Source: a virus. From it: 36,724 bases of DNA. The notes below the pieces were generated by a model, which saw nothing but the letters and a program-made list of their open reading frames with translations, did not search any database and was not told the DNA's origin. The DNA lies in IMG/VR virus record IMGVR_UViG_3300042475_003970, positions 1-36,724 of that record; one strand, 5' to 3'. Each line of letters opens with the position of its first letter. Position 1 is the stretch's first letter. Below, piece by piece: positions 5,057 through 36,724 of this stretch. A program made the position numbers and the translations under genes.

Positions 5057-5338
5057 CTAATCGACTAGATTTTCTAGGATCTTGTTCACGGCCTCGTCTA
5101 TCAGGTCTCCGCAGTCGTGGACGGCGCTTTCCTCAAGATCTGGGCACCTTGCGTGGATTATTTCGTGTGCGGCACAATTTAACAGACTTCCTTTGGCTTT
5201 CCTGCGGAGGATGATCCTCCTCTCGTCGTAGATGCAGACTGCGTCGTCTGGCTTGCCGTCCGTTTTGCCGGGGTTCCCAAACTCTATCGTCCACTTTTTG
5301 CCCGAGATTTGGATGGACACTTTTTTGGTTTTTTGCAT
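5057..5338 (-). CDS. Small HExxH metallopeptidase-like protein
   Basis: A 93-residue protein. It contains AAHEIIHARCPDLEESAV at about residues 56-73: H58, E59 and H62 form a zinc-binding HExxH motif, and the acidic residues E69/E70 could supply a third ligand. A beta-strand region (DERRIILRRKAKGS) precedes it, as in minimal SprT-, ImmA- or Wss-like zinc peptidases. There is no signal peptide. Its start lies 55 bases inside the endonuclease VII gene in another frame, an unusually long overlap, so the two are probably translationally coupled. Substrate unknown: it might process a phage or host protein. The motif could also be structural, since the protein is very small. Confidence 0.6.
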   Translation of the reverse strand: MQKTKKVSIQISGKKWTIEFGNPGKTDGKPDDAVCIYDERRIILRRKAKGSLLNCAAHEIIHARCPDLEESAVHDCGDLIDEAVNKILENLVD

Positions 5339-5859
5339 GGCCGTTTTCTGTGTTTGGTCAAATATTTTTTAGCTGTAGCGAGTAAGATAATGTCATCTTT
5401 AAAGAGTCCAAGACCTAAATTGCACTTGCTGCACAAGAGACCACGAATCATCCCGCTCTTGTGGCAGTGATCGACGGCTAAATTTTTGCCAGAAGCGCAT
5501 GGTTTACAGCAAATTGCACATCCGTTCTTCTGTTTTTTAAGTTTTTTATCGTACTCTGTAGTAGATATCCCGAAACCCTTCATAAGCCTGTAATTTCGAT
5601 ACTTCTCGGCGTTTGCTCTCCTCCAAGCCTGAGTCTGAGCGGTATATTTTTTGGGATCTTGTCTTCGCAAACGATTCGTAGCGTTACGCCTAGCTTTCAA
5701 TAGCCTTACAAACGACTCGGGAGAATACCACTTCTCGACTATCTTCTTGGAGCCGTCTTTATATTTTCGGGGGGTGTAGCCACCAAAAATAAATCCATCT
5801 CCCCGTACGTCTCCAATCTTGAACTCCCTAGTTGTCTTGGTGGTCTTCTTGGTAGCCAT
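5284..5859 (-). CDS. Recombination endonuclease VII-like HNH nuclease with N-terminal GD module
   Basis: A 191-residue protein. The C-terminal half has the endonuclease VII signature: CAIC (C114, C117), VDHCH (D130, H131, H133), RGLLCSKCN (C143, C146, N147), then GLGLFKDD. The four Cys bind zinc and the DHxH/N residues form the HNH-like active site. The T4 family resolves branched DNA; stand-alone phage versions often act as mobile or packaging-related nucleases. The N-terminal 55 residues (KIGDVRGDGFIFGGY ... EKWYSPESF) match in pattern the short proteins at 23963-24376 and 27283-27528, suggesting a shared DNA-binding module. The C-terminal tail is very basic. It overlaps both neighbours out of frame, by 32 and 55 bases, suggesting that it was inserted. 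Confidence 0.85.
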   Translation of the reverse strand: MATKKTTKTTREFKIGDVRGDGFIFGGYTPRKYKDGSKKIVEKWYSPESFVRLLKARRNATNRLRRQDPKKYTAQTQAWRRANAEKYRNYRLMKGFGISTTEYDKKLKKQKNGCAICCKPCASGKNLAVDHCHKSGMIRGLLCSKCNLGLGLFKDDIILLATAKKYLTKHRKRPCKKPKKCPSKSRAKSGR

Positions 5860-19876: not shown

Positions 19877-20016
19877 TATCGCTTCTTTGCGGTCTTGGCG
19901 GACTGCTTGAATGCTTTTGCCGTAGGGGCTCCTGCAGATCCCGCCTTCCTCATGCGTTCTCCGCTGCCAGCCTTGATGCGCTTCTTCTTTGCGTGGATGT
20001 TAGAATATAGTCCCAT
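19876..20016 (-). CDS. 46-residue basic MGLY protein
   Basis: A short ORF starting at the ATG at 20014-20016 and ending in TAA at 19876-19878. The product begins MGLYSNIHAKKKRIKAGS and is very rich in Lys, Arg, Ala and Ser. A similar tiny MGLYxNIxxK gene is frequent near the terminase and DUF6321-like genes of T7-like phages, which supports reality despite the small size. Likely a nucleic-acid-binding or virion protein; function unknown. It is coupled to the homing endonuclease by TAATG. Confidence 0.65.
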   Translation of the reverse strand: MGLYSNIHAKKKRIKAGSGERMRKAGSAGAPTAKAFKQSAKTAKKR

Positions 20017-20064
20017 AAGACGCTTTTGTAATGCAACGCGTGTTGCGTGGCAAGTGGAAATTTT

Positions 20065-20138
20065 TGGCTACCCCTCATGGATTTGAACCATGACTAGATC
20101 GGTCAAAGCGATCTGTGCTACCGTTACACCAAAGGGTA
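20065..20138 (-). tRNA. tRNA-Gln (anticodon UUG)
   Basis: A full cloverleaf can be folded on the minus strand from 20138 to 20065. The acceptor TACCCTT pairs with AGGGGTA (one G-U pair); the D-arm is GTGT/GCAC with an AACGGTA loop; the anticodon stem is GATCG/CGATC with loop CTTTGAC giving anticodon TTG; the T-arm is CATGG/CCATG with loop TTCAAAT. The U1-A72 first pair is typical of glutamine tRNAs. The discriminator is G and CCA is encoded (20065-20067). It decodes CAA codons. Confidence 0.92.
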
Positions 20139-20153
20139 AAATTGAATTTTATT

Positions 20154-20227
20154 TGGTGGCGCGGTCTGGAATTGCACCAGAGTTTTTGCCGTATGAAAGC
20201 AACGTGAGGCTTCTTCACTACCGCGCG
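20154..20227 (-). tRNA. tRNA-Met-like (anticodon CAU) with atypical D and T loops
   Basis: The minus strand from 20227 to 20154 folds into a 74-nt cloverleaf. The acceptor CGCGCGG pairs with CCGCGCC apart from a C1-C72 mismatch; the D-stem is GTGA/TCAC; the anticodon stem is TTGCT/GGCAA with loop TTCATAC and anticodon CAT; a 4-nt variable loop follows; the T-stem is TCTGG/CCAGA. The discriminator is A and CCA is encoded. A mispaired position 1-72 is the hallmark of initiator tRNA, although the usual pair there is C-A. The D-loop lacks the GG pair and the T-loop is TGCAATT instead of TTCRANY. It could be an initiator-type tRNA, a lysidine-type tRNA-Ile2, or a decaying gene. Confidence 0.75.
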
Positions 20228-20272
20228 ATAAATTTACCGACTTCCACTCGTCAGTGGATTGTGGCTTGTCGG
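20228..20272 (-). terminator. Possible hairpin between large terminase gene and tRNAs
   Basis: CCGAC (20237-20241) pairs with GTCGG (20268-20272) and encloses the CCACT/AGTGG stem (20244-20257). On the minus strand the structure ends directly before an A/T-only stretch that leads into the tRNA-Met gene. It could terminate the terminase transcript or act as a tRNA-precursor processing element. The remaining bases up to 20411 contain no recognised gene. Confidence 0.35.
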
Positions 20273-20411
20273 GAAGCCGCGCCTTGGCCTTCACACAACT
20301 TTTAAATCATGGAGAGGGAATGGGGCGAATATGTGATAAAAGAAGACCGACTGAGAGATAGCGTGCATGTGCAGAGGCCCAATCGGTTTACTACGTTGAA
20401 AAGTATTGTTG

Positions 20412-22298
20412 TTATTCCGACATGTCAACATAAGACATGGCATCTACCAAACTTTCGAGTCGTCGCTCCCTAATTCTTTTTTCCTTGGGTTTGTCGGTTA
20501 CCATCTCGGCTGCGACGCCCGAGCGCTGACGCATGAGGTACACGAGTAGTGAGAGGGAGTCGAGCGCGTCTGGTGACTTGCTGCGCGTGCGCTTGACGTA
20601 CTCCGCCTTGGCCTCCACGCGCACGAGTCCCTTGCCCTTCTGCTTGTACCTCCTCCCCGTGGCCTGACGAATGAGATCCTCGGTTCGGAACCCGGGCGAA
20701 ATCTTCAGATACCCGAACTCGATGTACTTCGCGAGTCCGAAGAGCAGCTCGGTGACGACTCCGCTATACAGCTCGTTCGCTAGCTGCGAGTCATCTCCAA
20801 GGATGCGCGAGTCAGTAGCCGCCCACGAGTAGTTCACGCCCATCACCTCCTCCCCGAAGAGCGTGCAGAGCCCGTCGTGAATTCCCGACCCATTGCCAGT
20901 TCTATCGACGCACAGCCAGTTGGGACTGATCTTCATCTGCTGGCAGAACTTGATGATCGCGGTCGTCTGTTCGAGCGTGGCGCGTTTGGGGAAGGTGATT
21001 TGAGAATCGAGCTGCAGGACGGTTCTAGGACTCTCGTAGGGGACAAACTTCCCAGACTGCGGCGTATAGCCATCGGATAGCCCGAAGCGTCCGTAGCTGC
21101 AGACGACGCTATCGTTGCCCTCAAGCGCTAGATCGAACGCTGCGAGGGGAACTACTGGGCCGATGAATCGGACGGTTCCTAGGGCATTGTCGAGCATCGA
21201 TGGGGTCATGACGGCCATGGCTATGCCCTCCTCGGGGAACCAGCCACGTGCCATCGTGAAGTATTCCGCCGTGTGACCACGATTCGCGTAGTTCATGTAG
21301 CCGTCGTACGTCTGCAATCCCGCGTAGACGATCTTCTTCTCGATGACGTTCTCGCACTTTGATGCATCGACGCGAAGTACCCTGAAGCCGTCGCGACTTG
21401 TCCACTCGAAGTCGTCCTCGCAGTCAACGCTAGCCCACCCGTTCTTGGGCTCGCAGCGTGCGCCGAAGTCGCTGGTGCGATCCTTGGGGTTTGACGCACC
21501 GAGAATTTTGATATGCCCAGCGAAGTGCTCGTCGTCCATGGAGGAGGCGATGTTGTTTACGCCTTCCCAGACGCCGCCCGGGATCTCCTCCGCCTCATCC
21601 AAGACAACCCTGATCCGAGACAGCCGCCCGTACTTTGGGTGCGCCTTTCCGAATCGCGGTGCTGGGTGGAACCCGCGCAGCGTTCCCGCTCCGCTGTCTC
21701 CGCGAGGAATTGCGACTAGGTGAATGCCCTGCTTGGAATCCTCGTTGGCCTGAATCGATGTGACCAGCGCCTCGCCCTTCGGGAACTCGGGCTTGACTAG
21801 CGCCGACCTGTGAAAATTTTTGATGTGCGCGTAGATGTTTCGCTCCGCGTGCTCGCGGGTAAGACTGATGACCTTGATACAGGTATAAAAGGGATCCCTC
21901 AGCCAATCGAGGTAGAACCACGCGGCTCCGTTGAACGACTTGCCCATGGCTCCCGCACCCTGAATGAGTAGCTTGTCGTACTTGAACAGGCAGCGCCATG
22001 TGTCTCGTGCCGACTCTGGTCTCCAGTCGTACACCTCAGACCCCCATAGGATCGTAGCCGCAGCCTCGAACTGATTCTTATCGAGCAGGTGTTGTACAAA
22101 TTGCAGTACAATCGCCTTGGCCTTGGGGACGTCGAGAACGACGTTGTTGGCGTTGGCCGTAGCGTGTCGCAGGATGTGGCTAGCGCCGTAAAGAATGCCC
22201 CTCTCCTCGTCCCTATCGACCTGCTTGCGGATCTCCTCAGCGAGCTTCAGGGCGTGGCTTACGTTACGCGCTGGTGTCTGGGGAGGTTTGGTCGTCAT
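20412..22298 (-). CDS. Terminase large subunit
   Basis: A 628-residue packaging motor. The N-terminal ATPase has Walker A GAGAMGKS (residues 114-121) and Walker B RIRVVLDEAEE with D234-E235, followed by coupling motif GASN (about 277-280). The C-terminal RNase H-like nuclease has its acidic residues in AAFDLALEG (D389), WLCVDRTGNG (D465) and SKSPDALDSL (D577/D580). It cuts concatemeric DNA and pumps it into the prohead through the portal. It follows the small subunit with a 35-base overlap, the usual coupled arrangement. Length matches typical phage large terminases with an N-terminal extension of about 90 residues. Confidence 0.93.
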   Translation of the reverse strand: MTTKPPQTPARNVSHALKLAEEIRKQVDRDEERGILYGASHILRHATANANNVVLDVPKAKAIVLQFVQHLLDKNQFEAAATILWGSEVYDWRPESARDTWRCLFKYDKLLIQGAGAMGKSFNGAAWFYLDWLRDPFYTCIKVISLTREHAERNIYAHIKNFHRSALVKPEFPKGEALVTSIQANEDSKQGIHLVAIPRGDSGAGTLRGFHPAPRFGKAHPKYGRLSRIRVVLDEAEEIPGGVWEGVNNIASSMDDEHFAGHIKILGASNPKDRTSDFGARCEPKNGWASVDCEDDFEWTSRDGFRVLRVDASKCENVIEKKIVYAGLQTYDGYMNYANRGHTAEYFTMARGWFPEEGIAMAVMTPSMLDNALGTVRFIGPVVPLAAFDLALEGNDSVVCSYGRFGLSDGYTPQSGKFVPYESPRTVLQLDSQITFPKRATLEQTTAIIKFCQQMKISPNWLCVDRTGNGSGIHDGLCTLFGEEVMGVNYSWAATDSRILGDDSQLANELYSGVVTELLFGLAKYIEFGYLKISPGFRTEDLIRQATGRRYKQKGKGLVRVEAKAEYVKRTRSKSPDALDSLSLLVYLMRQRSGVAAEMVTDKPKEKRIRERRLESLVDAMSYVDMSE

Positions 22299-22824
22299 CT
22301 ACGAGGTGGGCAAATTCGACGTCGGGCTCTGGCTCGGGAAGCGCTAGCGGTTCGTCGTTTGCGTCGGGAATGAGTACGGCGTCCATGACGCCTGATCCAT
22401 CTAGGGTTTTGCTATCGCGGTCGCGAACCGTGAAGTTTAGTTTCAGGTCGCTGCTCGCCGTGAGGTTAATGTTGTCCGAGAGTTCCCCGGCGAGTTTTGC
22501 GTCCAGCGCTATGGCCGCTAGCTTGTCGTAGGTCTCCTCCACGCCGTTGGCTCGGTTGACAACCTTGGTGGGCACCGCACCCTCGATCATGAGACGTAGG
22601 ATCTCACGCTTTCGTCCAATGACGGCGACGCTACGGGTGGCGACCTCCGTACGGATCTCGGCGATGCGCGAAATGATATCTGTCCGCTTCATCAGGCTGC
22701 TCGCGTAGACCTTGGGAGCCTTGGCGGTAGGATTCACCTTTCCGTATGCAACCGCCGCCGTATCGCCCGTCTCGGCGATGAGGGAACAGAATCGTTCGTG
22801 TGTGAGGTTTTCTAAGACTGGCAT
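22264..22824 (-). CDS. Terminase small subunit
   Basis: A 186-residue protein. The N-terminal half is helical with the Terminase_2-like pattern: ENLTHERFCSLIAETGDTAAVAYGKV (cited only as a helical run, residues about 4-30), YASSLMKRTDIISRIAEI, and a coiled or oligomerising helix. The C-terminal 45 residues are acidic and Pro-rich (PEPEPDVEF, DDDQTSPD). It binds the packaging site and forms a ring that recruits the large subunit. The ATG at 22824 was preferred; an in-frame TTG at 22866 would add 14 residues. The gene lies directly downstream of the non-coding block, a natural place for a pac or cos site. Confidence 0.8.
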   Translation of the reverse strand: MPVLENLTHERFCSLIAETGDTAAVAYGKVNPTAKAPKVYASSLMKRTDIISRIAEIRTEVATRSVAVIGRKREILRLMIEGAVPTKVVNRANGVEETYDKLAAIALDAKLAGELSDNINLTASSDLKLNFTVRDRDSKTLDGSGVMDAVLIPDANDEPLALPEPEPDVEFAHLVDDDQTSPDTSA

Positions 22825-22871
22825 GGGTGTAGCAGTTGGAGACCCTATGTCGAATAGGTAGGACAAGGCAA

Positions 22872-22920
22872 TCTAAAAAAATTATTTCTAAAAATTTCGC
22901 CACCCCCCTATTTGAGGGGG
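22872..22920 (-). terminator. Hairpin terminator ahead of the terminase genes
   Basis: Plus-strand CCCCCT (22904-22909) pairs with AGGGGG (22915-22920) around 5 bases. On the minus strand the stem is followed by two A/T-rich T-runs (complement of 22872-22896). The stem resembles the one at 36396-36413 in sequence. It should stop early or non-coding-region transcripts just before the late terminase operon. Confidence 0.65.
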
Positions 22921-22941
22921 CCGCGCCGCTGGCGGGACGCG

Positions 22942-22991
22942 TCCCTCCTCCCCCTACCCCTACCCCCCCTCCTCCTCCTCCCCCCACCCCC
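22942..22991. repeat. 50-nt polypyrimidine tract beside a 12-bp palindrome
   Basis: Only three of 50 bases on the plus strand are purines (A at 22956, 22962, 22986), with several C4-C8 runs. The minus strand is therefore G-rich, with multiple runs of three or more G that could form a quadruplex; the duplex could form triplex DNA. The palindrome GGGACGCGTCCC at 22934-22945 overlaps its left end. Confidence 0.6.
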
Positions 22992-23566
22992 AGCCCGATC
23001 GATCGCCCAGCCCGCCCGCCGAGCCGTCGATGGCATGGTTGAGTAACATAGGTAACCCTGTGTGTATGATGCACTTAGGTAGTAAGTAGTGAGATAGTGA
23101 TACGAATACGCGAGAAGTATCCATGACAAAGGTTATCTGATGTTATGGACGATTATCAGGTTCGGACAGAGTAATCGAAGCGCTTGGATCACTACCCATA
23201 ATATCGTTAAAACATTAACATGGTGTTAGGAGCCGAAACAATGCGTCACCGATTCACTGCAGCAATGCAGCATATAACTAATTTAATATTGAGCCGCCGA
23301 TTACCGAAAGCGTTTAAAGCCCCGCTATCGAGTTTTCCAAGTTGGTTCGCGACAATGCAGCAGGGCGACACTGAAAACGAGCGCAGGGTGCCTTAGCGAC
23401 GCGGCAAAGGGCCGCATAAGAGAGCGACGCGATCAGAGAAAGCACCCAGCGCATGATCGAGACGCCTGAACAGAGACGAGCCATGAGGTTTACTCTGTAA
23501 CCCTGAAGCAATGAAACCCGATACACTGGTACAAAGGAGACCGCTGCAGAAGTTACGAGAACCCGA

Positions 23567-23872
23567 AGTGGGGTTGTACAGAGACAAGTGGGGTAAAGTG
23601 GACTTGATTTTTTCATCTCCACTCCGCCGCGCAGCCGCATAGACACAGGGCCAAAGGCCAGTGGAAGTGGAGAAGTGGAGTAATAATATAAATTATTGTA
23701 GGGAAAATATATAGATATAGGCCCCGCCGCCGCCGCCGCCGCCGCCGCCGCCGAGGTTTTTTTTTTACGCACTTCTACACTTCTCCACTTTTTTGTTTGT
23801 AATTTCCTGTCTATTAGTCACTTAGCTGTAGTGGACTTCATTTCCCCCGTATTTTTCTTCCCCACTCCCACT
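23567..23872. repeat. Cluster of 11 AGTGG/CCACT pentamers, iteron-like
   Basis: AGTGG occurs on the plus strand at 23567, 23587, 23597, 23660, 23666, 23674 and 23830, and CCACT at 23619, 23785, 23862 and 23868. Two copies extend to AGTGGACTT followed by ATTT. By base-count chance about one copy would be expected in 306 bases. Alternation of AT-rich stretches with clustered short repeats resembles replication-origin architecture. Confidence 0.45.
23724..23766. repeat. (CCG)10 trinucleotide repeat followed by T10
   Basis: Ten perfect CCG units (23724-23753), then AGG and ten T (23757-23766). The tract is flanked on the left by an A/T-only region and on both sides by AGTGG-type repeats. Such a pure microsatellite is rare in phage DNA and likely varies in length. 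On the minus strand it reads A10 then (CGG)10, capable of unusual structures. Confidence 0.85.
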
Positions 23873-23962
23873 TAACAAAGCGAGCTAATTGATGTTACTT
23901 TGAAGCACTGAAGCCCTGACGCGTTGAATCAATGTAACATGTATTTATTTACACGTTTAGCT

Positions 23963-24376
23963 TTACAGATTCCATTCTGGTGCCAAATTACTCGTCGCTT
24001 TCGATAGATTTTGTTTGGCTGCTTCTTCACATTGTTGTCGATAAGCCTGAAGCTCGGCCTTCTTTTGACTACGTTTAATTCCCAACTTACTTGTGTCTTC
24101 TGGACGTAATCTTTCGGCTGGTATCTCTAGTTTGATTCTCCCTTTCTTCAACCTAGAATTTGTTTCTTTCCGAATTTCTCCGTATCTCAGGATGAGTCCT
24201 TTGTTTTGTTTTCTCCATTTTTCGCCGTACTTTTTGTATTCTTCAAAGTACTTTGTCGTTACCCAATGCTCGGTAAGAGCGCCGTCCATACGCGCACTAT
24301 ATTTGAAAAATATTTTGCCGTCTTCCCGAATGTCACCCTGCTTGTGTAGCCTTTTTGATTTGTCAGTAGTTGTCAT
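23963..24376 (-). CDS. Basic protein with GD module, possibly DNA-binding
   Basis: A 137-residue protein. Residues about 8-55 read HKQGDIREDGKIFFKYS, then EHWVTTKYFEEYKKYGEKW, which matches in pattern the N-terminus of the endonuclease VII protein at 5284-5859 and the protein at 27283-27528. The rest is Lys/Arg-rich and helical without the HNH residues. It may be a DNA-binding relic or stand-alone module of mobile endonucleases. The ATG at 24376 was preferred because the GD-module homologues start shortly before this motif; the frame extends to 24412. It is the last gene before the non-coding block. Confidence 0.65.
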   Translation of the reverse strand: MTTTDKSKRLHKQGDIREDGKIFFKYSARMDGALTEHWVTTKYFEEYKKYGEKWRKQNKGLILRYGEIRKETNSRLKKGRIKLEIPAERLRPEDTSKLGIKRSQKKAELQAYRQQCEEAAKQNLSKATSNLAPEWNL

Positions 24377-24419
24377 GCAACTACAATAAGTCAACTTTTC
24401 GCAACATTGCAACCGCTAT

Positions 24420-25367: not shown

Positions 25368-26071
25368 TTGATTTCAGATTTGAGTGCGGCGAGGGTGGCA
25401 CACACCTCATCTATCTCCGTCTCCGTTACCCATCCATCTTTTCCAGAATACATCTCGTCCTCATTCCAGCCGCCAGTATCTAGGTACTTACACGCTGTTT
25501 CAGCAATCTCGATGGATCTTGCGAGCTGCGATCGAAGCCTCTCGACCTCGGCCTCGGCTTTCTTATGGCCTTCCAATAGTAGAGGAACGCCATGTTGGAT
25601 TATGCACTCACCTAGCCGAAGACCCAGCTTGTCAGCCATTCCTCGAATTGGTTCGCAGACATGGACATAGGCTTTGACGCTCTTTTTGTAGAAATCGACC
25701 TCGGCCTCGGCTCTCTTCCTCGTCTCGCGTTCCTGCCGCAGTTCTTCAGCATTGCAAGTTGCGTCTAGCTCCTTCTGGAGTAGGGCGACCTCGGCTTTAG
25801 ATGCCTTTAGCTCACGCTCTAGCTCCTGCCCAAGCTTCAATGGGATGCAGTCCTGTCGAAACGCCGATGATCGCAAAGCTTCAAATCTTGCGGCATCCGT
25901 GCGTGGTGTGTCGGTGGTGGTGGTCATTTTTGGTTTTTCTTGAGTTTCAGCCCCGCAAAATTTGCAGTTAACCTCATTAAAAAATCGGGCAACCTCGTTT
26001 TTCGGGTCGTCAATTAGGGTTGCGTTCACTCCGTCTTTGAAAGCGTGGGATACGTCGGTTTCGTGGTTCAT
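25364..26071 (-). CDS. TDTPRTDA coiled-coil paralogue with N-terminal extension
   Basis: A 235-residue ORF from the ATG at 26071, which overlaps the upstream stop as ATGA. The first 48 residues form a small module with CKFCGAE; then MTTTTDTPRTDAA begins at 25927 where the paralogues start, so 25927 may be an alternative start. A long coiled coil (ERELKASKAEVALLQKEL; KKAEAEVERLRSQL) and a C-terminal domain ending ATLAALKSEIK follow. The KAEAEVERLR segment is nearly identical at DNA level to that of the neighbouring genes. Confidence 0.6.
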   Translation of the reverse strand: MNHETDVSHAFKDGVNATLIDDPKNEVARFFNEVNCKFCGAETQEKPKMTTTTDTPRTDAARFEALRSSAFRQDCIPLKLGQELERELKASKAEVALLQKELDATCNAEELRQERETRKRAEAEVDFYKKSVKAYVHVCEPIRGMADKLGLRLGECIIQHGVPLLLEGHKKAEAEVERLRSQLARSIEIAETACKYLDTGGWNEDEMYSGKDGWVTETEIDEVCATLAALKSEIK

Positions 26072-26403
26072 TGGTCGCAAGGATTGATTCCGCATTTCTT
26101 TGCGAGGGCTACAAATCCGTCTGACCACGAACCTCCCATCAGGTCGCGTGATTCTCGGTAGAATCCGTTTTTAATAAGAAACTCGGCGTGGGCATTGAGG
26201 AGTCCCCGAAGCCTCTCGACCTCGGCCTCGGCTTTCTCGGCTCGTTCTGTCTGTTCGGTCAAAGCAAACGCCGTTTCGCAATACTCATCTTTTGTTGCAG
26301 ACAGTTCGCGCTCAGCTATTTCGGCTTTCGCTTTCCATATTTCTTCGGGCCAAGGCGCGTCTAGCGCGGCTCTTAATTTTGCCAATTCTTTTGCTAGGCT
26401 CAT
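26068..26403 (-). CDS. Coiled-coil protein
   Basis: A 111-residue protein, MSLAKELAKLRAALD followed by heptad-rich sequence (RAEKAEAEVERLRGLL) and a C-terminal domain with SWSDGFVALAKKCG. The start at 26403 is set by ATGA overlap with the upstream gene; a longer in-frame ORF extends into that gene and was not used. It belongs to the same family as its two neighbours, sharing the AEAEVERLR core. Function unknown. Confidence 0.65.
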   Translation of the reverse strand: MSLAKELAKLRAALDAPWPEEIWKAKAEIAERELSATKDEYCETAFALTEQTERAEKAEAEVERLRGLLNAHAEFLIKNGFYRESRDLMGGSWSDGFVALAKKCGINPCDQ

Positions 26404-26996
26404 TTGGTGTTGTTTAGCTCGTCGCGGAGTTGAAGCATGAAGACGGTTGAGGAAACGGCAGGGATTGCCTTGTCGAGCAAGACCCTGAGCCTCTCGACCT
26501 CGGCCTTTGCTTCTTTCAACTCTTTCTGCAATTTGTCTGCGTGTTCCCAGATGGTTCCAGCGGGGTCTTGCCCCTCTGCTATGTGAGCGTTTCGCAGGTC
26601 GATAAATCTCTGCTTCCATTCACGCCACCCTGAAGCCTTGGTTGCTAATTCAATTAACTCCTTGTGAGTTCTCCTGCCGTCATCACCTAGTGCGGCTCGG
26701 ATCTCTTTGACCTCGGCCTGTGCTTTCTCGCCTCGCTCAAGCAAATCTAAAAACGCTTTATGGCGAGACTCTGGAAGCGTTTGCAGCCTCTCGACCTCGG
26801 CACTAAGAGTGCAATTTGATATTTTCCACTCCAGCAGGTCGTCACCTAATGCGGCTCGGATCTCTTTAACCTCGGCTTTGGATGCGGCGAGTTCTTGCTC
26901 AATCATTCGGCAGATTGTGTAATGCACCCAGTCTGAGGTTTTACCGTCATAGTAGCGCTCACGAGCGGCATCGGTTCGTGGTGTGTCGGTTGTCAT
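26400..26996 (-). CDS. TDTPRTDA coiled-coil protein with internal duplication
   Basis: A 198-residue protein starting MTTDTPRTDAARERYY. An AEVKEIRAALGDD segment occurs twice (about residues 40-53 and 92-105), showing internal duplication. Coiled-coil heptads run through most of it, and AKAEVERLRVLL sits near the C-terminus as in neighbours. Coupled by ATGA to genes on both sides. Probably an elongated oligomer; no catalytic motif. Confidence 0.65.
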   Translation of the reverse strand: MTTDTPRTDAARERYYDGKTSDWVHYTICRMIEQELAASKAEVKEIRAALGDDLLEWKISNCTLSAEVERLQTLPESRHKAFLDLLERGEKAQAEVKEIRAALGDDGRRTHKELIELATKASGWREWKQRFIDLRNAHIAEGQDPAGTIWEHADKLQKELKEAKAEVERLRVLLDKAIPAVSSTVFMLQLRDELNNTK

Positions 26997-28541: not shown

Positions 28542-30722
28542 TTAGAACGGCTGCTCGACTGGCGCGTCCGTAAATACGAACTGGTACTTGACCTTTCCAT
28601 CGAGCATGCGCTTGCCCTTGAGCTCTCGCACCATGTCTTGCTGCATCAGCTTGGAAAGTTGCTTGCCGATGCTCACCGTCTTGAAGTTGGACAGATCCGC
28701 GCCCTGACCCAGCACCGCTGCTAGCTGCGTCCTGAGCTCGGTAGCAGTTACCTCGACGGCCTTGACCTTCTCCTCGCGCTTCGCGTTGAGCCACGCGTCA
28801 AGGATCTCCGAGAACACGTACTCGCTCTGCGTTGTCTGCGCCGAAGTCACGAGCTCCGCGTGGTGAAACGATTTCACACCGAAGCGCTTGTACACTGGAT
28901 CAATGATGCCCTCTGGCATCTCACGATCGAGCAGCCAGCGGAGGAAGAATGGAAGCTCCTTGCACACGCGCTGCTCGTTGTCGTAGTTGGTGCCGTGGAA
29001 GTGGGGGCGGTATCCCTCCTTGAGCTTGAAGAGCATGATCTTGTCTCGGATCGTGCCGTCGAGAGTTGGGAGGATTCGCAGCGACTCGGGGTCAGTATTG
29101 CAGGTGACGACAACGCGCCCTAGGAATGGGAGCTCGACGCTGTCCCTGAACTTGGGCTGGTAGAGCTGCGATGGGTTCGCGGCCATCTGCTTCAGGCTCT
29201 TGGTGAACATCTCGCGGGTCTTCCAGTTGCCGTCTGTAGCGGCGTCGTCGCAGCGCCATAGAGCGCACTCAGCGCCCTGCTTGTTGAAGCTGGTCTCCTT
29301 CATGAGTAGGGGCTCCGCGTCAACGGATCCGCCCAGCGCCTCGCCGATGACCCACTTGTTGATGAACGACTTCCCAGTGTGAGCGTCGCCAGCGACGATG
29401 ATGACTTGACCCGGGAGCGGCCTGCAGTTCAGCGCTGACTCGTAGAAGCGCCTGAACCACCCGAGGAAGTACTCGTACGCTGGGATGCCGTCCAGCTCGC
29501 CGTCAAACGCGTTGGTGATGAAGTCGTGCAGCCATGGGAACTGATCCACTGACGCGCTGCTAGCGGGCTGCGTGACGCGCTTGTTGCTGATGTTGAGGTA
29601 GCGCTCGCCGCCGAAGTCCACGGTCTCCTCTGGTGAGAACAGGATGGGAACCGCTGCGGTGACTCGGCGCTGAGTCTGCACGTGAATGAGCACGCGCTCC
29701 ACGTCGCTGACCTGCTGCCCGCGCTGGGGACGATCGTTGACTCCCGCGCCCCGCAGGTGGAGCTTGGCGTCCTCCTTGGCTAGGTACACGAAGTTGTCCG
29801 CGTGGTGCTTCGTCCAGTACGTCTTGCCATCGAACCAGAACATCTGAGCCGCCTTGCCAGTCTGCTCCTGCTCGAAACGCTCGACGAACTTTCCGCCTAG
29901 GATCTGACGCCACGTCTTGAAGTTGGTGCCCTCGCGGTCTGAGAAGATCACCATGCCGTTCTCCGAGATGACAGACGCGAGGCGATCGATGCCGTCGTTT
30001 ATCCAGAACAGGGGCTGCTTCTTGCCGATCTCAAAGGCTCCCTGAATGCGGTTTGGGAACTGCTGCTCGACCTCAGCTGCGACGATCTCGATGGGGATGA
30101 GTGGTGCGTCGGTGGGCTGGATCTTGGCCTTTTCAGCGCCCTGCAGCAGGCAGGTCTCGAGTAGCGTGGAGGGAAGAACTGGAGCCGCGCCGTCAATCGT
30201 GACCGCGTTCCACTGCGTGCCCATCTCAAAGTACTGGTTGAGCTCGAAGGACTTTTTGTCGAAGCCCGGGAGCGCCGACGAGATCCGAACCGCCTTGTTG
30301 AGCTCCTGCAGGAACTTCTCGGTAATGGCCTCGTTGAGCACGTTGACTGGAGCCTCGAAGGCCCAGATGAGGCGAACCTTGCCCGGCGTAAAGGTGCTGA
30401 TGATGTACGCGGGCATGTACGCGGTGCTCTTCGAGAGCTTGTCGATGTTGTCCATGGCGGTCTCCGCGTCGTAATCGCCGATGATGCCGTGCAACCTTTT
30501 AGCGGGGTTGCCATCCTTCACTCTATCGTGAGGATTGACGCCCTCAGCAGCTGATAGGAAGACGCCGCTGGTCGTTGCGTCGGCGCACCAGTTCGAGTAC
30601 TCCTCTTTGGTCTTGAGGGGCGTGTCGAGCAGGTTGCGCGGGTTCTCGGTTCCAGCTAGGTACAGGTCGTCGGTTTCGAGGATCTCGTGTGTGACGAGGT
30701 TCTTCAGTGAGAATAACTTCAT
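28542..30722 (-). CDS. Primase-helicase (AEP-like primase plus SF3-type helicase)
   Basis: A 726-residue replication protein. The N-terminal region carries GIIGDYDAE (D83 and D85), resembling the catalytic acidic pair of archaeo-eukaryotic primases, with FTPGKVRLIWAF (111-122) as a core strand. The C-terminal half is a superfamily 3 / virulence-E-like ATPase: Walker A GDAHTGKS (445-452), Walker B LWRCDDAA (D492, D493), and motif C VVVTCNTDPES (N542). It should prime and unwind DNA for the family A polymerase encoded upstream. The start follows a (CA)14 mRNA leader without Shine-Dalgarno. Primase activity is inferred from the N-terminus; helicase assignment is firm. Confidence 0.85.
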   Translation of the reverse strand: MKLFSLKNLVTHEILETDDLYLAGTENPRNLLDTPLKTKEEYSNWCADATTSGVFLSAAEGVNPHDRVKDGNPAKRLHGIIGDYDAETAMDNIDKLSKSTAYMPAYIISTFTPGKVRLIWAFEAPVNVLNEAITEKFLQELNKAVRISSALPGFDKKSFELNQYFEMGTQWNAVTIDGAAPVLPSTLLETCLLQGAEKAKIQPTDAPLIPIEIVAAEVEQQFPNRIQGAFEIGKKQPLFWINDGIDRLASVISENGMVIFSDREGTNFKTWRQILGGKFVERFEQEQTGKAAQMFWFDGKTYWTKHHADNFVYLAKEDAKLHLRGAGVNDRPQRGQQVSDVERVLIHVQTQRRVTAAVPILFSPEETVDFGGERYLNISNKRVTQPASSASVDQFPWLHDFITNAFDGELDGIPAYEYFLGWFRRFYESALNCRPLPGQVIIVAGDAHTGKSFINKWVIGEALGGSVDAEPLLMKETSFNKQGAECALWRCDDAATDGNWKTREMFTKSLKQMAANPSQLYQPKFRDSVELPFLGRVVVTCNTDPESLRILPTLDGTIRDKIMLFKLKEGYRPHFHGTNYDNEQRVCKELPFFLRWLLDREMPEGIIDPVYKRFGVKSFHHAELVTSAQTTQSEYVFSEILDAWLNAKREEKVKAVEVTATELRTQLAAVLGQGADLSNFKTVSIGKQLSKLMQQDMVRELKGKRMLDGKVKYQFVFTDAPVEQPF

Positions 30723-31320: not shown

Positions 31321-33075
31321 TTATTTCTTGTAGACGTCTGAGAGTGAGCCCTCGGCGGAAAGGGGAAGTCCCTCGGCCCATTCTGGGGCGGTTGACATGA
31401 TCTTGACGATGGTGTCCAAGCAGCGCTTGCCCTCGTCGCCAGCTGGCACCTGACACACGACCTCGTCATGGATCCGCATGATTACTGGGAATCCCTGCGC
31501 CTCGATGCGTAGGCAGCAATCCATGAACACGTCACGGGCCGTCGCCTGCACGAGATTTTCCGTAACGACTCCGCCCCAAAATCCTAAGCGCATGAACTTG
31601 CCTTGGCGCGGTATCTGCGCGGTGAGTCCGCCGTGATCCACTGACACGTTTCGATATGTCATCTTGCGACCCGAAGGCATCTCGATCTCCGCGTTCTTGT
31701 CGTCCTTACTAGTCGCGGTGCTACGTAGCACCTCCTCCAAGTCTTTCCAGAGCTTAGTTACGAGGGGGTTCTTGACGCGGTACAGACGCGTTAGGCGCTC
31801 CGCCTCATCGGTGGGGATGTTCGCGACCGACGCAAATTTCTTCGCGCCCATGCCGTATCCCAAGCCGAGGTTCAATCCCTTGATCAGGTGGCGCTTCTTG
31901 GGGTCAGTCCGCAGGGGCTCGTCTCCGCTCCAGAGCCCCATGGCACGCGCCTGAGCCTCGTAGAAGTCGGGGCACTGGCGGATGTGCTCAAGCATCTTGG
32001 TATCGCCAGCGAGCCAGTGAAGCACGCGTGGCTCGATCTGGCTGAGGTCAACGATCGCGAAGGTGTAGCCTTCGGGAGCCTTGATCATGCTGCGGACATC
32101 GACGTCGAAGACCTCGCCCTTGGGAAGGTTCTGCGCGTTCCAAGAGCCGTCGCCGCTGTCCCTTCCCGTGTGAGCTCCGAAGAATTTCAAGCCGTAGGGC
32201 ATAGTCCCATCTTCCCTGCAGCGGCTTCTCATGGTCTCAAGTGTGCTCAAATGCTTGTTGCCGCGCCTGAAGTTACGTACAGCCTTGATCCATGGGTGCA
32301 GGTGGGAGAACTCGTCCTCCCAGCGCTCCGCCTCGTCGTCGCCCTTGGCGAATGACGCTGGTGCCCAGATGCCTACCTTCTCGCACTCAGCACGCACGGC
32401 CAGCGGCGATAGTATCGACTCACGATCGGCCCATGGGATGTCGAGCTTGGCCTGCCAGATAGCCGTCTGCAGCTTGGTGATCGCCTTGTCGAGAGCGGGC
32501 ACGTCGAGGGGAACTCCGCGTGAGCACATGGTGCGCGTCATGGCGCTTATCTCGCGCTCGTGCTCCACGAACTTGTCTCCGTGCTGCAGGTAGAGGTTGA
32601 GGCAATGAACCGCGTCGTCGAGAGCGTACTTGACCACGTCGTCACGAAAGAACACGTCCATGTCCTCCCAGCGCTGGCCCTTCATGTTGTCGCGGATGGT
32701 CTTCGTCATCTCGACTCCAAGCAGGCTGTTGGCGCTTTCCTTCAGGCTTCGATTGTGTCCTAGGTACGCGGCCATGTCGGCTGTGCATACCCACTCCGCG
32801 ATCTCGATGCTCTCTGGAGCGTGTCCCAGCTCCTGCAGCCGCTCGATGACCATGGAGTCGAACGAGACGTTGTGAGAGAGCCAAGTGACGTCGGGGCCAA
32901 CGATCTGCGACCAGTCAAAATCCTTGGGGTGACCCGCCCATCTGAGCCCGTTGTCAGCAGCTACCGAGAGCAGGTACAGATCGGCCTTTGGGTGACGAAG
33001 GTAGTGCCAAGTCCCGAGCGTCTTGATGGAGACCTCGTCGTCGTAATAAGTTTCAGTGTCGAGTGCAACGATCAT
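31321..33075 (-). CDS. Family A DNA polymerase with 3'-5' exonuclease
   Basis: A 584-residue replicative polymerase. Exonuclease motifs: DTE (residues 6-8), HNVSFD (N69, D73) and YALDD (Y150, D153/D154). Polymerase motifs: A VDLSQIEPR (D343, E348), B RHLIKGLNLGLGYG (R395, K399, Y407), C HDE (536-538). It lacks an N-terminal 5' nuclease, as usual for phage PolA. The residue equivalent to E. coli F762 is L403. It is ATGA-coupled to the glycosyltransferase gene upstream and followed closely by a small gene and the deaminase. Confidence 0.93.
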   Translation of the reverse strand: MIVALDTETYYDDEVSIKTLGTWHYLRHPKADLYLLSVAADNGLRWAGHPKDFDWSQIVGPDVTWLSHNVSFDSMVIERLQELGHAPESIEIAEWVCTADMAAYLGHNRSLKESANSLLGVEMTKTIRDNMKGQRWEDMDVFFRDDVVKYALDDAVHCLNLYLQHGDKFVEHEREISAMTRTMCSRGVPLDVPALDKAITKLQTAIWQAKLDIPWADRESILSPLAVRAECEKVGIWAPASFAKGDDEAERWEDEFSHLHPWIKAVRNFRRGNKHLSTLETMRSRCREDGTMPYGLKFFGAHTGRDSGDGSWNAQNLPKGEVFDVDVRSMIKAPEGYTFAIVDLSQIEPRVLHWLAGDTKMLEHIRQCPDFYEAQARAMGLWSGDEPLRTDPKKRHLIKGLNLGLGYGMGAKKFASVANIPTDEAERLTRLYRVKNPLVTKLWKDLEEVLRSTATSKDDKNAEIEMPSGRKMTYRNVSVDHGGLTAQIPRQGKFMRLGFWGGVVTENLVQATARDVFMDCCLRIEAQGFPVIMRIHDEVVCQVPAGDEGKRCLDTIVKIMSTAPEWAEGLPLSAEGSLSDVYKK

Positions 33076-36380: not shown

Positions 36381-36414
36381 AAAAATAAAAAAATACCCCC
36401 CTTGATGAGGGGGC
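36381..36414 (-). terminator. Rho-independent terminator
   Basis: C5-6/G5 stem (36396-36401 and 36409-36413) with 7-base loop, followed on the minus strand by GTATTTTTTTATTTTTG (complement of 36380-36396). It follows the stop of the proline-rich repeat gene by 11 bases and should end that transcript. Confidence 0.75.
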
Positions 36415-36424
36415 AAATTAATTT

Positions 36425-36724
36425 TTACCGCACACCGCCCGGTTTGACCGTTTGCACAGGCTTCACTGGGGCTCTTTGAGTAACGCTCGGGGTGGGAACT
36501 CTAGGAGTTGTTGGAGTAGGAACTCTCGGCCCCGTATTTGAAACTCTAGGAGTTGTTGGAGTAGGAACTCTCGGCCCCGTATTTGAAACTCTAGGAGTTG
36601 TTGGAGTAGGAACTCTCGGCCCCGTATTTGAAACTCTAGGAGATGTCGGAGTAGGAACTCTTGGGCCTGTATTTGAAACCCTAGGAGATGTCGGAGTAGG
36701 AACTCTCGGCCCCGTATTTGAAAC
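36425..36724 (-). CDS. Proline-rich repeat protein, N-terminus outside window
   Basis: The frame is open to the right edge; 99 residues and the stop are visible. Five tandem units of VSNTGPRVPTPTxPR are followed by VPTPSVTQRAPVKPVQTVKPGGVR. The sequence is basic, Pro/Thr-rich and without acidic residues, so an extended stalk or a nucleic-acid or polyanion-binding tail is possible. The function depends on the unseen N-terminus. Confidence 0.7.
   Translation of the reverse strand, partial: VSNTGPRVPTPTSPRVSNTGPRVPTPTSPRVSNTGPRVPTPTTPRVSNTGPRVPTPTTPRVSNTGPRVPTPTTPRVPTPSVTQRAPVKPVQTVKPGGVR
36499..36723. repeat. Five tandem 45-bp repeats within a coding region
   Basis: Units start at 36499, 36544, 36589, 36634 and 36679. 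The three left units are nearly identical; the two right ones share GATGTC instead of GTTGTT, a sign of stepwise duplication. The period of 45 keeps the reading frame (15 residues). The array may continue outside the window. Confidence 0.95.

Follow-up and report, generated by a model that had tools for sequence, protein, structure and literature searches.

In phage P4, the alpha protein has iterons at ori and at a second cluster, crr. Contiguous short units are also found in MetJ operators, which are built of 8-bp met boxes, and in omega operators, which are built of 7-bp heptads. In the PICI origin, which lies immediately 3' of the initiator gene, two iteron sets always flank an AT-rich region (PMC6092414). 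The AAA+ helicase domain DUF5906 occurs in NrS-1 polymerase and in poxvirus D5 (PMC9611036), and PICMI satellites have a primase with this domain (PMC10803314). Facing repeats around an AT-rich stretch have apparently been described so far for phage satellites; here we report this layout in a phage that appears to be virulent, a lifestyle suggested by the lack of an integrase among the gene families listed for it (25 per library).

The window (the whole stretch of 36,724 nucleotides that was analysed) is part of the genome of an uncultured tailed phage, and the complete circular genome of the same phage is G001 (~65.1 kb, with a ~193-b terminal repeat). It contains a non-coding block (Table 1) that is likely to be the iteron replication origin of the phage's PolA/DUF5906 replicon. 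An origin was among the functions suggested in the initial annotation, and this reading is well supported by the anatomy of the block and by its co-distribution with the replication module. Like the pri-rep-ori of PICI/SaPI elements, the block has two iteron sets around an AT-rich region, with a word that differs between elements (PMC6092414), and in several relatives it lies 3' of the primase-helicase gene. In contrast to those elements, the window phage has its own structural genes, a PolA, octad arrays and extra iteron groups, and several genes separate its primase gene from the block. Since G001 has terL, portal, capsid and baseplate genes and no listed integrase, the block would work like a PICI origin without belonging to a PICI. 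Phage P4 shares with this locus a primase-helicase with short iterons in both orientations; no crr-like second iteron cluster was found in the complete genomes tested, which have one dominant word cluster per genome. Iteron plasmid origins of the RepA/RepE type also have iterons adjoining an AT-rich unwinding element (PMC4980987), whereas in the block inward-facing sets flank the AT core on both sides, and no RepA-like protein was seen.

The initial annotation had described a one-kilobase non-coding interval, and the block proved to be slightly longer, at 1,138 b, since it is delimited by the conserved terS start ATG at 22,824 and by the next ORF, which ends at 23,963. Almost all genes lie on one strand. 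The block is the largest gap seen, as had been claimed, but the accompanying statement that no other gap exceeds about 240 b did not hold, as the gap at 19,877-20,411 (~535 b) contains two tRNAs. When all ORFs of at least 60 aa were mapped in G001, no second gap of such size was seen apart from the stretch at the contig ends, which is coding but interrupted by the cut. Two ORFs lie within the block (22908-23129 and 23314-23772). Compared with L004, substitutions in ORF 23314-23772 are distributed over the codon positions as 30/40/30, and those in terS as 8/4/37, so that terS has the usual third-position excess, unlike the flat pattern in the two block ORFs. Relatives also carry 1-2 nt indels and in-frame stops in these ORFs. 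The codon-position and indel pattern ruled out a protein gene inside the block, and the possibility that homologues have a translated gene here was not borne out.

Table 1. Features of the non-coding block and of associated genes in the window.
Feature	Position	Strand	Details
terS	22264..22824	-	Weak PHROG match to terminase small subunit
Whole non-coding block	22825..23962	.	Non-coding test, conservation, co-distribution with replication genes
AT-rich stretch and GC hairpin	22873..22925	-	Adjoins terS; terminator-like, not called by scan
C-rich tract	22943..22996	.	Minus strand G-rich; kept in L004-L006
Octad array 1	23056..23079	+	CCCTGTGT GTATGATG CACTTAGG; degenerate
Conserved motif	23131..23146	+	GGTTATCTGATGTTAT; recognisable in L007, L008 and L012
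Octad array 2	23239..23278	+	Five 8-bp units
Octad array 3	23493..23532	+	
Candidate iteron group A	23566..23601	+	Direct AAGTGG at 23566, 23586 and 23596
Inverted copy of group A	23617		CTCCAC
Candidate iteron group B	23660..23680	+	AGTGGAAGTGGAGAAGTGGAG; word pair at 23665 and 23673
Candidate iteron word pair	23665-23680	plus-strand reading	AAGTGGAGAAGTGGAG
AT-rich core	23681..23724	.	77% A+T, between facing iteron sets; candidate melting site
GCC repeat run, then T10	23725..23766	.	Within spacer; in window phage and close relatives
Candidate iteron group C	23770..23790	-	Inverted words ACTTCTACACTTCTCCACTT, complementary to group B
Anchor and word	23819..23835	+	CACTTAGCT, then AGTGGA at 23830
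Further inverted word	23868..23873	-	CCACTT
Octad array 4	23906..23934	+	CACTG AAG CCCTG ACG CGTTG AAT CAATG
DUF5906 primase-helicase	28542..30722	-	Candidate initiator
PolA	31321..33075	-	Family A DNA polymerase; same replication module

Judged by its sequence, the block is a structured DNA site. The sharp change in composition reported for it is real, and its plus strand is purine-rich. A strong minus-strand terminator had been placed at its left side; a CCCCC/GGGGG hairpin (~22,902-22,921) and a T-rich minus strand are indeed present there, but "strong" overstates the case, as the minus-strand T run begins several bases beyond the stem and the hairpin was not among the calls of the terminator scan. 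C-rich DNA lies at the same place in L008 as the C-rich tract does in the window. Copies of a short word, AAGTGG-AG, face inward from both flanks of the AT-rich core, and four arrays of 8-bp units (octads), each with five conserved bases (about CMNTG) and three more, surround this iteron core. Both words and octads exceed simulation: AAGTGG/CCACTT occurs 7 times in the block (simulated mean 0.47, maximum 4 in 1000), and there are 5 octad pairs at lag 8 (simulated mean 0.25, maximum 3).

Substitutions in the octads are concentrated on positions 3, 7 and 8. In four relatives, positions 1, 2, 4, 5 and 6 varied in 6/55 cases and positions 7 and 8 in 15/22 (p = 1e-6). The 8-bp period of this constraint is not codon-like; it suggests that a protein contacts the octads as it polymerises on the DNA, and the arrays probably serve as a further set of sites at which protein binds cooperatively. 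The units resemble MetJ and omega operators in being contiguous, short, direct or inverted, and fixed in phase, and one guess at the binder is a ribbon-helix-helix protein of the MetJ/omega kind; a search of these phages with RHH_1 gave no match over the cut-off. Sub-threshold matches to ribbon-helix-helix families, which we treat only as a lead, were obtained for two small ORFs close to such blocks. One is a 58-aa ORF beside the block of L212 (L212:11602-11778), a candidate octad binder with sub-threshold matches to TacA1, ParD_like and HicB. Tandem arrays of the CANTGNNN octamer, mostly of near-identical units, also occur in 51 IMG/VR stretches (L131-L181), of which L155, L159 and L165 look nearest to the degenerate arrays of the window. 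Such arrays would fit octads that have no part in the origin and are either functionless microsatellites or a partition-like site. We consider this unlikely, as the units in the window are degenerate and constrained in a phase-specific manner, and 67/68 more distant terL loci are devoid of octads upstream of terS beyond single short runs.

Alignment with related phages had been proposed as a check on the block, and the block is indeed conserved in three of them (DNA identity ~87% in L004, ~85% in L006 and 76% in L005). In L006 it is retained although the adjacent gene has been swapped. Four further members of the clade, L007, L008, L012 and L013 (terL 82-84% identity), carry a block in the corresponding position; blastn scarcely aligns these blocks with that of the window, yet their elements come in the same order. 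The sets compared contain few sequences, and these are redundant in part, with L004-L006 close to one another, L008-L011 of one type, and L012 and L203/L204 of one type. Searches of phage collections with the block DNA, terL, portal and primase gave no match. Among pattern scans, GTTGTACAGAGRSAAGTGGGGT recovered known relatives only, unlike GACGCGATCAGAGAAAGC, which had other matches too, and matches to the TCAGATAACCTTYGTCAT motif were mostly coincidences in coding DNA (DEGYL codons), L093 and L030/L031 aside.

The genes beside the block vary. ORF 23963-24412 resembles the N-terminal part of an HNH-type protein encoded at 5284-5859, lacks the HNH region, and has no Pfam or PHROG match; its counterpart in L006 is replaced. 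A gene is inserted just upstream of the terS start in L005, and at about the same place L012 and L013 have a different insertion, an HNH endonuclease-like gene between the block and terS.

In the phages compared, relatives retain the layout of the block while swapping its repeat word wholesale. All 13 phage loci have a forward word (W), an AT-rich stretch and an inverted word (W') 97-152 bp further on, measured from start to start. The 6-mer words, picked from an enriched-word list and by eye, are AAGTGG in the window's group, L007 and L008, GCATGG in L012, GCAGGG in L013, TGAGGG in L210, GGGTGG in L212, and GGTGGA in L211, L213 and L215. In L212 and L215, ACTTAGCT is again followed by the local word. 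In each complete genome tested, the dominant word cluster is at the block (7-11 copies per 350 b, compared with 3 elsewhere), with the exception of G019, which has 5 copies elsewhere.

When the proteins of G001 were compared with ten genomes, the block tracked the replication module (PolA and DUF5906 primase-helicase) rather than packaging genes. The genes for terL and other virion proteins (portal, capsid) occur in block-bearing and block-less genomes alike. PolA, the DUF5906 primase-helicase, an SSB-like protein and an SF2 helicase are found in block-bearing genomes, the L012 contig covering only PolA and primase of these replication genes. The five block-less relatives G008, G009, G010, G012 and G013, which share terL, portal and capsid with G001, have none of these four proteins and no octads. 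A scan with PolA recovered six more loci, L210-L215, in which PolA is 56-59% and the primase 44-47% identical and the terminase is ~25% identical, on the opposite strand, or not found. Five of the six carry octads and the same layout; L214 ends within the primase gene. The first words lie 3' of the primase gene, at 0.4 kb in L210, 0.6 kb in L212, 1.6 kb in L215 and about 2.6-2.7 kb in L211 and L213; the block of the window is also 3' of this gene but ~4.6 kb off, with several genes between. The presence of the same PolA/primase module beside unrelated virion genes in L210-L215 amounts to a clean replication-module swap between phage groups.

These comparisons bear on other functions that the block might have. 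Transcription control at the early/late boundary, in which the repeats would be operators and the terS-side hairpin a terminator overcome by an antiterminator so that late genes come on, fits the position of the block just upstream of terS and the conservation of the terminator-like hairpin in L004-L006. We nonetheless regard it as a quite improbable account of the block, because relatives with the same late genes lack it, the block of L210-L215 accompanies unrelated late genes, and a control site of this kind would not be expected to have inward iteron sets about an AT core. The two groups also differ in how the block is oriented relative to the primase operon, which speaks against a co-transcribed leader as well. 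A late-gene control function could exist alongside an origin.

A long non-coding RNA had also been suggested. Transcribed from the plus strand over ~23,040-23,800, with pairs of words and inverted words as its stems, it would be in keeping with the purine-rich plus strand, a fold z-score of -2.8 (-1.8 on the other strand), a long inverted repeat with a T run after it, and stems that are replaced in concert between phages. However, the additional direct copies of the word change in step although they have no pairing partner, which RNA pairing does not require, and the octads are degenerate, with constraint on an 8-bp phase. There was no match to Rfam or to covariance models of large phage ncRNAs (GOLLD, ROOL), and the covariance folding that had been proposed gave an RNAalifold covariation term of about zero (-0.12). 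Such an RNA is thus very unlikely. The least likely reading is the proposed packaging site, a pac or cos sequence that TerS would recognise to start packaging. In its favour, the block adjoins terS, and the clade's near-complete contigs are circular permutations of one another. The block does not travel with the terminase genes, however: it is missing from relatives that share terL/terS but carry other replication genes (G008, G010 and G013 have terS homologues at 40-45%), and phages with an unrelated terminase have it, away from that terminase.

For the origin reading, we propose a mechanism whose steps of protein binding, melting and initiation, and whose pairing of proteins with repeats, are predicted from the layout. 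The words, spaced 8-10 bp apart, would be iterons to which the phage initiator binds, and the DUF5906 primase-helicase is the most likely candidate for this role. Through the inward-facing sets, initiator would come to sit at either side of the AT-rich core, the core would melt, and the primase-helicase and PolA would then begin copying, while the octads would bind a second protein. A structural model of the window primase is weak (mean pLDDT 59.6); its best PDB matches were NrS-1 helicase first and then PriRep1 with dsDNA, the latter a staphylococcal satellite protein. The window protein shares the DUF5906 domain with NrS-1/D5-type primase-helicases and matches NrS-1 best, but at 10-12% identity and from a low-confidence model. 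GC skew, used as an origin test, was uninformative, with no consistent shift at the block.

Genomes labelled Verrucomicrobia, among them Pontiella and Pontiellaceae, encode more remote relatives of the primase (32-34% identity), which gives a hint, though no proof, of the host group. The arrangement recurs in several of these, with the words TGACGC, GTGACA or GGACAC, and in L232, L296, L299, L301 and L302 the words start 26-340 b after the primase match. At least 5 copies of a 7-mer, in both orientations, were present in 10/52 stretches downstream of primase and in 4/283 controls (p = 2e-6, or 1e-5 with one near-duplicate dropped). This 5-copy cut-off was set post hoc, and a rank test of these data returned p = 0.09. 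Clusters occur in a minority only, as most remote PolA/primase relatives have no detectable cluster, and in 68 terL-related loci that lack this replication module, a separate blind scan detected no cluster.

We tentatively raise the possibility, which we would not favour at present, of a replicon family that spans virulent phages and Verrucomicrobia-type elements and has a satellite-type origin layout in which the initiator changes in step with the word, so that each phage has an origin code of its own. If so, this code might shut out competitors or satellites that parasitise phage replication. A satellite-type layout in apparently virulent DUF5906 phages would link phage and satellite replicons, and the code of initiator-iteron recognition could be worked out from such a natural series of origins, in which the geometry is constant and the words are many. 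The layout would also serve as a sequence signature for locating origins in uncultured phages.

Two further features were observed in these genomes. The PolA gene of G003 (L108:4215-5175) has an in-frame insert of ~0.9 kb that is intein-like (it starts CLSGNTEVLT and ends IIAHN before C), with an HNH-like ORF inside in another frame. The end of the window (~36,400-36,724; G001 25734-26444) holds a tandem-repeat ORF of PRVPTPTxPRVSNTG units, and as the window and G001 differ by ~90 b near it, the repeat copy number probably varies.
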